16,608 nucleotides of DNA from Gemmatimonadota bacterium (GTDB taxonomy: Bacteria > Gemmatimonadota > Gemmatimonadetes > Longimicrobiales > Gaopeijiaceae), in contig JAHHMJ010000518.1 in the NCBI GenBank assembly GCA_018678395.1, positions 1 to 16,608 of the forward strand, in the 5' to 3' direction. The first letter of the stretch is position 1. Every line of letters starts with the position of its first letter. Made by a program: the position numbers and the translations under genes. Below are positions 2,143 to 5,423 of the stretch, one piece after another. Below the pieces are notes generated by a model. The model searched no databases. It was not told where the DNA came from and was given only the letters and a program-made list of their open reading frames with translations.

Positions 2143-2583
2143 TCAGAGGTCCGGATTCCCGGCCATGAAGCGCAGCTGAAACCGAAGGGTGTGGATGTGC
2201 CAGCCGCGAGGCGAGTCGCGGAGGCCGATGTCGTAGGTTCCGACCAACGTCCGCGTGTTCTCCCCCACCGGATTGCTCCGGTAGTGGTATGCGATCCCGT
2301 GGCAGGCCACGTGGGCTTCGTCCTCGTGGATCGTCGAACGGAGGTTGCCGATCTGGTGGTGAACGGCGTCCAGAGACGAGAGCCCCCGCATCCAGGCCGC
2401 CACCAGATCGTCCGCACCCATCGTCCCGACGGCGCCCCTCACTGACGACAGCTCGACCTGCAGTTCGTCGTCGAACAGCCGGCGCACGCGTGCCCACTCC
2501 CCCTGGTCGATGGCCACGAACAGCTCGACCACCGCACGCTCGGCCGAAGCCTGACGAACCATGGTACGGATCAGTGCGTCCAC
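2143..2583 (-). CDS. NTF2/SnoaL-like small protein
   Basis: This 146-residue protein looks like the NTF2-like/SnoaL cone fold, with the pattern of an N-terminal helix pair (AERAVVELFVAIDQGEWARVRRLF) and later strands with conserved aromatics (AYHYR, GWHIHTLRFQLRF). Members range from isomerases and hydrolases to pure binding domains, so no reaction can be assigned. The start is GTG at 2583, chosen because AAGGAGAGG lies just upstream; the ATG at 2562 has no ribosome site, and an upstream in-frame start at 2658 would add 25 unlikely residues. The GTG lies inside the end of the metallo-hydrolase gene (13-bp overlap), so the two are probably translationally coupled. The product may act with the hydrolase, but no signal peptide is present, so they would be in different compartments. 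Confidence 0.75.
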   Translation of the reverse strand: MDALIRTMVRQASAERAVVELFVAIDQGEWARVRRLFDDELQVELSSVRGAVGTMGADDLVAAWMRGLSSLDAVHHQIGNLRSTIHEDEAHVACHGIAYHYRSNPVGENTRTLVGTYDIGLRDSPRGWHIHTLRFQLRFMAGNPDL

Positions 2584-3605
2584 GAGTCCTCTCCTTCGAG
2601 TTCGGTGAGCCAGGCTCCAAGCGCCCGCTCGAAGTACGACGGGCTGAACGAGGTCCAATGGGTGCTTTCGCTCGGCAGCTCGAAGTCCGCCGCCGCCTCG
2701 GCGGCGGTCCGCCCGACACGCCGCGCTTCGCGGGCGTGCGCCTCGACCGCGTCGAGAACGGCCACGTATCGCCCGAACGCGTCGGCATCGGACAGTGGCC
2801 CGTGCCCCGGTACCAGCACGGAGTCCGGGCCGACGGCGATCGATGCCACCGCCCGACGCAATTCTGAGGGGCGGGCGTCCACGTAGTTCGGGAACATCTC
2901 GTTCCAGACCAGATCGCCGCAGAACACGACGGGGGGGGCGTCCAGCTCGACCGTCACGTCGCTCGCCGTGTGCCCCCTGCGTGCGCCGATGCGCACGCGG
3001 CGCCCCCCCAGATCGAGCGTATCGTCTTCGTCATCGGGGCGCGCGACGGCGCGTTCGAGCGCACGTGCCATCGGGTCGGCGCGTTCGGGAGCCGCCTCTC
3101 GGAGGCCCTCGGTCAACCGGTTCCGGGTCGCCCCGGTCAACCATACCTCGGGCGCGGACTCGTCCACCCCGAAGCCGGGCAGTCCGGCGGAGTGGTCGCC
3201 GTGGTAGTGGCTGACGACCACGACGTCGGGCCGGCGCCCCGTCAGCCGCAGGGCCTGGTCCGCCATCCACTCCGCACCGCGCGTCGATGCGAACGCCTCG
3301 ATCACCGCAACGCCGGATCGACCGGCGACGATCCCGCCGTTGCACAGCGTGGTCCGGTCCGCCATCGGATTCGAGATCATCGCCCAGACCCCGTCGGCGA
3401 TCTCGACGAGGCTTCCCCACGGCTCCTGGGCCCGCAGGACACCGCCGACGCCGCTGTCTCGAGTCCGCCACGGGATCCCACCCGCACCGAGCATCACCAG
3501 GTGCGCGAGACAACCGCCGGCCACACCGAGAAAACGACGACGGCCGACCCCGACCGACGGCGCGGCAGGTTTCGGGAGACGACGGCTGCAATCTGGATCG
3601 ATCAT
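2571..3605 (-). CDS. Tat-exported metallo-beta-lactamase-fold hydrolase
   Basis: This is a 344-residue MBL-fold hydrolase, counting from the ATG at 3605. A twin-arginine signal (GRRRFLGVAGG followed by a hydrophobic run) at about residues 21-45 predicts export of the folded, metal-loaded enzyme. The zinc motif H133-x-H135-x-D137-H138 (HYHGDH) is intact, with further family ligands in RRGHTASD, FCGDLVWNE and VPGHGPLS. It therefore has a full binuclear site. The family includes lactamases, quinoprotein-linked hydrolases (SoxH-like) and lactonases, and the substrate is unknown. A GTG at 3644 would add 13 residues; neither start has a good Shine-Dalgarno, but the ATG gives a more normal Tat leader length. 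The gene overlaps the downstream NTF2-like gene by 13 bases. It has no obvious tie to polysaccharide synthesis. Confidence 0.85.
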   Translation of the reverse strand: MIDPDCSRRLPKPAAPSVGVGRRRFLGVAGGCLAHLVMLGAGGIPWRTRDSGVGGVLRAQEPWGSLVEIADGVWAMISNPMADRTTLCNGGIVAGRSGVAVIEAFASTRGAEWMADQALRLTGRRPDVVVVSHYHGDHSAGLPGFGVDESAPEVWLTGATRNRLTEGLREAAPERADPMARALERAVARPDDEDDTLDLGGRRVRIGARRGHTASDVTVELDAPPVVFCGDLVWNEMFPNYVDARPSELRRAVASIAVGPDSVLVPGHGPLSDADAFGRYVAVLDAVEAHAREARRVGRTAAEAAADFELPSESTHWTSFSPSYFERALGAWLTELEGEDSWTH

Positions 3606-3789
3606 GGCGGCGGGGTCACGGTTCCGAAGTCGACGGACCCCCACGCTCTCGCGGTACGGCTCACGACGCGCCCGGAGGTTCGGCGGGGACTCTCACTGGA
3701 TCATGGCGAGGCCCAGGATCCCGGGCAATCGGGACCGGAAGTCTCGGTTTCAGCGTAGAACCCGGTGAGACCCACGACTGGAGAACCCC
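3606..3789. other. Divergent intergenic region, no clear signals
   Basis: These 184 bases separate the leftward metallo-hydrolase gene from the rightward small gene at 3790 and must carry their promoters if each is transcribed on its own. I searched for sigma-54 spacing and strong -35/-10 pairs and found none I would call. Confidence 0.4.
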
Positions 3790-4185
3790 TTGAATCGGCC
3801 GACGCGAACCGCCCTGCTCCTGGTCGCCCTGACCGGCGCCGCATGCGCCGCGCCCACCCAGGGCAGCCCGTTCGGCGCGGGACCGCAAGGAGAGCGCACC
3901 ATCCGCATCGAAGTGCGCAATCTCAACTTCTCGGACGCCACGCTTCACGCCCTCCGGGGGTCCGAACGCGTGCGACTGGGAATCGTGACGGGGAAGGTGG
4001 ATCGCAGCTTCGACATCGACTGGACGATCAGCCTCCCGTTGCAGATCGAGATCGATCTACTGGCCGGCGAGCGGTGCACCACCCGTCCCATCAACGTCGA
4101 CCCGGGTGACGTCATCGTGCTCCAGATCGAGTCGGACCTGCGGCGCTCGGGCGACTGTCTGGCCCCCGGAGCGTCGCCACCGTGA
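3790..4185 (+). CDS. Small secreted protein or lipoprotein of unknown function
   Basis: I do not recognise a family for this 131-residue protein. It begins with a basic MNRPTRT and a hydrophobic stretch (ALLLVALTGAAC), so it is exported; Cys19 could be lipidated but the lipobox (GAAC) is poor, and ordinary signal-peptidase cleavage is equally likely. The mature part alternates strand-like segments (RTIRIEVRNLNFSDATLHAL, LPLQIEIDLL, DVIVLQIESDL) and ends in two Cys-containing turns (ERCTTRP, SGDCLAP) that could form a disulfide, suggesting a small beta-sandwich. The start is TTG at 3790, supported by GGAG at 3780-3783 six bases upstream. It converges on the 4260-5423 gene, with a tandem repeat between them. 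Confidence 0.7.
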   Translation: MNRPTRTALLLVALTGAACAAPTQGSPFGAGPQGERTIRIEVRNLNFSDATLHALRGSERVRLGIVTGKVDRSFDIDWTISLPLQIEIDLLAGERCTTRPINVDPGDVIVLQIESDLRRSGDCLAPGASPP

Positions 4186-4189
4186 AGCG

Positions 4190-4215
4190 GTGAGCCACCC
4201 GGCGCGGGGGCTCAC
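4190..4215 (+). terminator. Hairpin after the small secreted gene
   Basis: GTGAGCC at 4190-4196 pairs with GGCTCAC at 4209-4215, and the adjoining CCC/GGG extends the stem past one bulged A, leaving a short GGCGC loop. It begins five bases after the stop at 4185, but no T tract follows. The right arm is part of the first copy of the 24-bp tandem repeat. It could act as a terminator or a 3' stabiliser. Confidence 0.4.
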
Positions 4216-4275
4216 GTCGGACCCGGTGCGGGGGCTCACGTCGGATCCGGTGCGGGGGCTCACGTCGGACCCGGT
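4204..4275 (+). repeat. 24-bp tandem repeat, three copies, covering a stop codon
   Basis: The unit begins gcgggggctcacgtcgga and is present at 4204-4227, 4228-4251 and 4252-4275; only one base differs (C to T in the middle copy). On the minus strand each copy carries an in-frame TGA. The TGA of the 4252-4275 copy (4262-4260) is the stop of the glycerate-kinase-like gene, so any readthrough would meet two further stops 24 and 48 bases on. Confidence 0.95.
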
Positions 4276-5423
4276 GCCGTCGCATCCGGAGCGGCCGCGA
4301 CCACCGCGACGAGATCGGTGCCACCCGGAAGGGGGGTCCACGATGCCAGCCGGACTCCGGGGAGATCCCCCGAGGCGGCGTGAGCCGACCGAGCGAGCCG
4401 CTGATGGCGCTCCTCACCACCCTCCAGCCGCATCTCGGCCAACGCACAACCGGGACGGGTGAGAGCGAGCCCATCCGCGACGGCCCGAGCGACCCTTCCC
4501 ATGCCCCGGCCGACGGCCTCGGGCTCGCCCGTCCGTCCCGTGCCCAGCAGGACCGTATCGAGACCGAGTCGGCGTGCCTCGGCGAGCGCCGTCTCGACGG
4601 CCGCGTCGGGCGGTCCCGCTCGCACGACGCCGACGCGCACCCGATCCTCCGGAGGATCTCCGCCGACTCCGGCGTCGGCGAGACGGTCGCGCACCCCGTG
4701 AGAAAGCTCCTCCCACACCCCTTCCTCCCTCAGGTCGCGCTCGAGCGACGGCCCCGCGTGGGGCCGGTACACGATCGGGGTCAGCGAGCCGTCGTCGTCC
4801 CCACCCGGATCGATCAACGAGACCGCCAGCACCTCGGCGGGGGATGCTGCCGCACCCAGGCCGCCGCCGTGGAGTCCGTCCAGTCGCTCACGCACACCCC
4901 GACGCAACGGTTCCGGGCACCCCGAGACCGCCCGGAGCGCGGACTCGAAGTCGCTGCGGCTCAGACCGGGGAGCGGGCATGCGGCAGCGGCGGACACCCC
5001 CTCGGAGAGCAGCAGCAGCAGCCGGTCCGAGGCGCCGAGATCCCTCGTCAGGGCGTCGATGCCGGCACCCGCTGCGAGGGCCCCGGACTCGAGATGCACC
5101 CAGGTCGATAGAGAAGGCGCCGGCGCGCTCGGCGCGGCCACCACCGGATCCAGGGCGTCCCCGAACACGGCTCGCGCGCCCTCGAGCATCGGCTCGGCAT
5201 GAATGCCGAGCGCTACCGCGGCGAGGCGACCGGGCGCGTCACCCCCCGGGCTCCCGCCCAACAGACGGAGCGCCTCCGTCGATGCGCCGTGGATCGACCA
5301 GTCGTGGGCGGCCAGGGTCTCGGCCACGCGACGACCCGGGTCCGCACCGCGAACACTCGCGCGCACGACGGCCCGCAAGAGCCGGTCGACGTCGGACCCG
5401 AGCGGGTCCCCCGGTTCACTCAG
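4260..5423 (-). CDS. Glycerate 2-kinase-like (DUF4147/MOFRL) probable pseudoenzyme
   Basis: The protein (372 residues from TTG 5378; 387 from a possible CTG at 5423) follows the order of GckA/TtuD glycerate 2-kinases, compared with family sequence recalled from memory. The N-terminal helix reads DRLLRAVVRASVRGADP. VALGIHAEPM stands where the family has VGxGKAAxxM, LLLLSEGVSAA for LLSGGGSAL, RERLDGLHGGGL for KHLSxxKGGRL, and SLIDPGGDDDGSLTPIV for LSDVxGDDxxxIASGP. The MOFRL half has LEGGEERHQRLA for GxGGRNQELA and then ends early. The fold is therefore recognisable while the catalytic Lys, the glycine-rich nucleotide loop and the GGRNQE motif are all altered. The frame is long and open, so it is not simply a decayed gene. 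It follows the wza-like gene, with its predicted start overlapping that gene's stop. The homology includes residues upstream of TTG 5378, favouring the CTG. A binding or regulatory role is a guess. Confidence 0.72.
   Translation of the reverse strand: MSEPGDPLGSDVDRLLRAVVRASVRGADPGRRVAETLAAHDWSIHGASTEALRLLGGSPGGDAPGRLAAVALGIHAEPMLEGARAVFGDALDPVVAAPSAPAPSLSTWVHLESGALAAGAGIDALTRDLGASDRLLLLLSEGVSAAAACPLPGLSRSDFESALRAVSGCPEPLRRGVRERLDGLHGGGLGAAASPAEVLAVSLIDPGGDDDGSLTPIVYRPHAGPSLERDLREEGVWEELSHGVRDRLADAGVGGDPPEDRVRVGVVRAGPPDAAVETALAEARRLGLDTVLLGTGRTGEPEAVGRGMGRVARAVADGLALTRPGCALAEMRLEGGEERHQRLARSAHAASGDLPGVRLASWTPLPGGTDLVAVVAAAPDATAPGPT

Follow-up and report, generated by a model that had tools for sequence, protein, structure and literature searches.

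Class II glycerate 2-kinases (GckA/TtuD type, with a MOFRL domain) and class I glycerate kinases (GarK/GlxK type) are two families with a presumed common reaction. Such pairs are the material of non-orthologous gene displacement, where genomes that carry both classes of enzyme for one activity are hardly ever seen. Pseudoenzymes, for example the pseudokinases, are proteins that have kept a fold and lost the catalytic residues. For the class II enzyme TM1585, PMC1079889 proposes an active site made of Lys47, Asp189, Glu312, Arg325, Asp351, and Asn407. PMC2063504 gives a class II consensus motif, D-X(0,2)-G-X(0,1)-D-[GP]-X(4)-[APS]-[ACDGST], and describes organisms with two glycerate kinase classes as very few. 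Here, we analyze a 16,608-nucleotide stretch of contig JAHHMJ010000518.1 from a Gemmatimonadota bacterium (assembly GCA_018678395.1), called the window below, in which a long open frame lies beside a wza-like polysaccharide export gene. A preliminary description had taken this frame for a glycerate-kinase-like pseudoenzyme in an exopolysaccharide (EPS) export operon. The gene is best explained as the ortholog, in remnant form, of a class II glycerate 2-kinase (GckA/MOFRL type). We give a probability of about 0.7 to the account that this remnant decayed after a class I kinase took over its reaction and that it is still translated and folded.

The assignment to class II comes from several directions. 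The DUF4147 model (PF13660) matches the window protein with E 3.3e-12 (46.8 bits, cut-off 23), and in a sequence search of the PDB the matches below 1e-3 are confined to the two class II glycerate kinases of known structure, 1x3l (3.2e-4) and 2b8n (8.9e-4). The predicted model of the window protein contains the two-domain fold of 2b8n. Chance similarity is excluded by the PF13660 score and the fold match, together with the synteny with homologues described below. The proposed alignment to class II kinases is borne out by one of the two domain models and by the structure prediction. PF05161 (MOFRL) gives no match to the window protein up to E 10. By comparison, the motif-complete protein P0008 scores 126 bits to PF05161. 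Searched alone, the window protein finds at least three database proteins at E<=1e-5, and a profile of five degenerate proteins (the window protein, the metagenome protein P0002, and copies from three related genomes) finds at least seven, among which those listed as degenerate are the window protein, P0002, and P0004. Four of the five degenerate proteins pass the PF13660 cut-off, the copy of genome G004 having no match, and none of the five matches PF05161. No second DUF4147 match was found elsewhere in the window's genome bin, which is 78% complete. A DUF4147 match, or the name glycerate-2-kinase that P0002 bears in its source, is not proof of an active enzyme.

The loss of catalytic residues was read against 25 other DUF4147 proteins, which have GKA in 25/25 and define 89 columns conserved at 90% or more. 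The altered motifs reported earlier (GIHA, SEGVS, RERLDGLHGGG, IDPGGDD, and GGEERHQ) are all present in the window protein, and the losses go further than that report: the alignment also shows no GETTV strand, no TGTN-bearing C-terminal part, and no His in the GHPxPD loop. The window protein keeps 39 of the 89 columns, and the others keep 31 (G001), 30 (G002), 20 (G004), and 31 (P0002). With an offset of 12, the TM1585 numbering fits Lys47, Asp189, Glu312, Arg325, and Asp351, and Asn407 we infer to lie in the TGTN motif. The equivalents of Lys47, Glu312, Asp351, and Asn407 are gone in all five degenerate proteins and that of Asp189 in four, while that of Arg325 is kept in all. The window protein itself retains only Arg325 and, by alignment, Asp189. 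The consensus motif given in PMC2063504 is missing from 5/5 degenerate proteins and present in 24 of the 25 others, the 25th (from G005) being cut by a contig end. That the protein has remained active as a kinase, on a different substrate or through a remodelled active site, is very improbable. The fold retained in the model and the universal Arg325 equivalent would fit an active kinase, but the equivalents of Lys47, Glu312, Asp351, and Asn407 are lost throughout, the residues that replace Lys47 and Asp351 differ between members, and the glycine-rich SGGGS loop is not retained. From its sequence, the window protein appears to lack kinase activity.

The context that best explains the gene was missed by the preliminary description: within the genus, a class I kinase occurs only in the members with a broken class II copy, and the two classes nearly exclude each other in a sample of the phylum. 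The genus set consists of the window's genome bin (G000) and five other genomes (G001 to G005). PF02595, the class I model, is found in G000, G001, G002, and G004 (there cut by a contig end), whereas G003 and G005 have no match. The G000 match is split between two fragments, each at the end of a contig, which span model positions 1-159 and 161-369. The TIGR00045 scores (cut-off 168) are 378 bits in G001, 373 in G002, and 175 and 163 for the two pieces of G000, the second falling just below. As a side observation, the class I kinase reads as lying near Nqr-type-like operon genes in G001 and G000 (L123 5849-7006, L127 2-496).

Among 121 genomes of the family, PF13660 is found in 22 and PF02595 in 13, and both occur only in G000 and G002. 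In a phylum sample of 395 Gemmatimonadota genomes, the numbers are 178 and 75, and both again occur only in G000 and G002, where the class II copy is broken; G004 is absent from the matched genomes of this sample and was probably not drawn. Independent draws of 176 and 75 would be expected to overlap in about 33 genomes, and because the lineages are not independent, the nominal probability of 6e-23 should not be read literally. The two classes also occur within single families (f2, f4, f7, and f9) in different genera, and within one genus (g4) in different genomes. In these counts, class II is defined by PF13660 score, motifs having been checked in the 25 proteins only, four of which come from outside the genome searches. 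The open-licence literature yielded nothing on a glycerate kinase linked to exopolysaccharide in gemmatimonads, or on displacement coupled with a pseudoenzyme.

The degenerate gene has changed fast. In the kinase tree, the five degenerate proteins form one clade (support 100/100), and in a GlmS tree one copy each of G000, G001, G002, and G004, probably the housekeeping copy, forms a clade (100/99) with G003 and G005 just outside. In the four genomes, tip branches measure 0.65-1.49 in the kinase tree and 0.045-0.094 in the GlmS tree. The kinase-to-GlmS ratio is about 7 to 22 there and about 3 in G003 and G005. This is strong relaxation. Such acceleration is also what is expected of a plain relic without function, whose frame is open only because of its DNA of about 75% G+C and too little time, a reading that we consider rather unlikely. 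The loss of the MOFRL end, the deletion in the core of the G004 copy, the fit of the G004 pairs to neutrality, and a G+C content at second codon positions of 0.57-0.64, above the 0.51-0.55 of seven intact relatives, all agree with a plain relic. Several observations speak against it. In neutral simulations with substitutions only and no insertions or deletions, the frame survives in 0-18 of 100 lineages at a distance of 0.45-0.6 substitutions per site and in 3-59 of 100 at 0.1-0.3, and the real frames are open in 4/4 genomes. In the five-protein alignment, 26 distinct internal gaps, some of which overlap, leave no net frameshift (P0002 entering as a protein sequence). Identities among G000, G001, and G002 are 41-47%, against means of 30-36% in neutral runs from a larger set of 1008 matched for third-position divergence, and runs as constrained as the real pair number 0/132 for G000-G002, 0/125 for G001-G002, and for G000-G001 2/136 by identity and 1/136 by ratio. 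Weak support comes from the hydrophobic core, which is conserved in 185 of 275 cells (0.67; real sequences aligned for maximal matches, gapped cells excluded). Neutral runs that lost polar residues to a similar degree average 0.47-0.55, and the best of them reach 0.70. We take these observations as a hint that a folded protein is under weak selection and that the G004 copy has decayed further.

Two other considerations were set aside. A GY94-type codon model over seven genes gives omega well below 1 for every pair; its silent sites, however, are saturated, and shuffled controls still align. Antisense coding was rejected as the cause of the open frame, each of the five other frames having at least one stop in 4/4 genomes.

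The long intact frame and its tight link to the wza-like gene, both noted earlier, hold up: the frame runs uninterrupted from a CTG at 5423 to the stop at 4260, and the wza stop overlaps this CTG in the four bases CTGA. The CTGA overlap is common to G000, G002, and G004; in G001 there is instead a GTG a few codons on. Judging from these codons, the protein is probably translated by stop-restart coupling with wza from a putative CTG start, the first in-frame ATG, GTG, or TTG being the TTG at 5378. At the other end, the tandem repeat provides the last codons and the stop. The coordinates of the locus are collected in the table.

Features of the kinase locus in the window (positions of the window; EPS, exopolysaccharide).
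Feature	Position	Strand	Basis and remarks
Degenerate class II glycerate kinase with DUF4147 but no MOFRL match, 387 aa from CTG	4260..5423	-	PF13660 match, open frame, modelled fold
CTGA overlap, wza stop TGA within proposed CTG start	5420..5423	-	Codons read; start inferred
24-bp tandem repeat, 3.4 copies	4197..4277	none	Between kinase remnant and convergent lipoprotein gene
wza-like polysaccharide export protein, Poly_export PF02563	5420..6274	-	E 4.2e-8; directly upstream of kinase remnant
glmS of EPS locus, one of two glmS in genome	6317..8140	-	TIGR01135 E 1.1e-236; upstream of wza, same direction
Small putative lipoprotein (sequence reading), convergent with kinase remnant	3790..4185	+	tblastn; no Pfam match

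The arrangement recurs within the genus. In G001, G002, and G004 the gene order is that of the window (OmpA, SnoaL-like, small lipoprotein, kinase-like, Wza, GlmS, and then response regulator, Wzc, and NtrC-type regulator). The degenerate kinase with such losses therefore stands next to wza in three other genomes, 4/4 in all, a recurrence that the preliminary description had proposed looking for. The neighbors are better conserved than the kinase: six tested neighbors are 48-88% identical between genomes, the kinase-like protein 36-47%. The kinases of G003 and G005 have the usual GKAA and SGGGS, and that of G003 (the same protein as P0008) also has GGRNQE, the G005 copy being cut by a contig end. 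The G003 kinase adjoins the same small lipoprotein, as do the degenerate copies of G001, G002, and G004, and is thus an ortholog by position; the nearest wza-like gene found there (35% identity) is about 7 kb off. No wza match was found on the 7.3-kb contig of G005. P0002, which enters the analysis as a protein sequence, is 53% identical to the window protein and shows like losses.

The fixed position after wza raises the possibility that the folded remnant serves exopolysaccharide production, for example by binding GlmS, Wza, or a sugar-acid ligand. We hold this to be unlikely. In its favor are the place after wza in all four genomes, with a start that overlaps or nearly does, the signs of weak constraint in three genomes, and the one old-site Arg retained in 5/5. 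On the other hand, no new conserved motif is obvious in the five degenerate proteins, and the other four are 31-55% identical to the window protein while wza and glmS are 60-70% and 82-88% identical across the four genomes. The constant linkage comes from a single clade and counts as one event. The G004 copy, the most eroded, has 293 codons against 387 in the window and lacks a 41-column core stretch and more, and this speaks against conservation of a ligand site. The earlier suggestion of a part in export, or in binding a sugar acid or nucleotide, is putative. The earlier observation is confirmed and the reading built on it partly supported. A more specific form, in which the dead kinase, once a class I enzyme had its reaction, was captured by the EPS operon as a translationally coupled partner of Wza or GlmS with a structural or ligand-sensing role, is likewise doubtful; if true, it would account for the fast evolution, since only the fold and the partner surface would matter.

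The glmS next to wza is a second copy, present in G000, G001, G002, and G004 and in neither G003 nor G005. The other glmS copies of these four genomes (L118-L121) are 56-57% identical to the EPS-locus glmS and group with glmS of other family genomes. G006 likewise has a glmS that falls with the EPS type; its branch is long. A metallo-beta-lactamase-fold protein (window 2571-3644) has a close match in G003 (53%) and none in the fetched stretches of G001, G002, and G004, where it seems lost or moved.

The displacement account may be put as follows. In the ancestor of one branch of this Gemmatimonadota genus, an unrelated class I kinase would have taken over the reaction, and a glmS-wza exopolysaccharide unit would have come to sit directly upstream of the class II gene. 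Released from catalytic selection, this gene would have shed its ATP/glycerate site together with the C-terminal end of the MOFRL domain, its rate of evolution rising several-fold, and the remnant would still be translated by CTGA stop-restart and fold as a non-catalytic, weakly constrained kinase-like protein. We infer the order of these events; since the EPS unit, the class I kinase, and the active-site loss are found in the same four genomes, they may share one stem.

Several points weigh against the displacement account. These models find neither kinase in 88 of the 121 family genomes; the reaction can therefore be dispensed with, and a replacement was not required. The broken copies of G001 and G004 fell below the threshold of the family PF13660 search, so an eroded class II gene beside a class I gene may have been missed elsewhere. 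Codon-shuffled GC-rich partners (40 per pair) still align at 30-33% identity, which inflates the codon test, and pairs with G004 overlap the neutral runs (most strongly at 85% GC, where 21/52, 32/58, and 12/61 reach the observed identity). Translation would have to begin at CTG in three genomes and at GTG in the fourth, and the gene is known here from sequence. Finally, with one clade, displacement, EPS linkage, and decay each amount to at most one event and are statistically inseparable.

As a rule, enzyme displacement is deduced from the absence of a gene. In this case, each of the four genus genomes with the proposed replacement retains the displaced gene in frame, and with the motif-complete form in two genus genomes the syntenic series of complete, dead, and eroded is present. 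Such a series makes it possible to study the persistence of a protein after its function is lost, and to ask if dead enzymes get captured for new uses.

Compared with the class II glycerate 2-kinases (TM1585, PDB 2b8n; PH0495, PDB 1x3l), the window protein is without the active-site Lys, Glu, Asp, and Asn, the GHPxPD and SGGGS loops, the C-terminal MOFRL part, and a PF05161 match. The class I kinase (PF02595, TIGR00045) is its proposed replacement and not its relative; it belongs to an unrelated family and is encoded elsewhere in the same four genomes. Like pseudoenzymes, the window protein keeps the fold, as predicted, has lost catalytic residues across a whole clade, and keeps its frame; unlike them, erosion goes on in one member (G004) and a non-catalytic role is putative. 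What differs from usual cases of non-orthologous gene displacement is that the displaced gene can still be seen as an open frame, next to relatives in the genus whose kinase is motif-complete.
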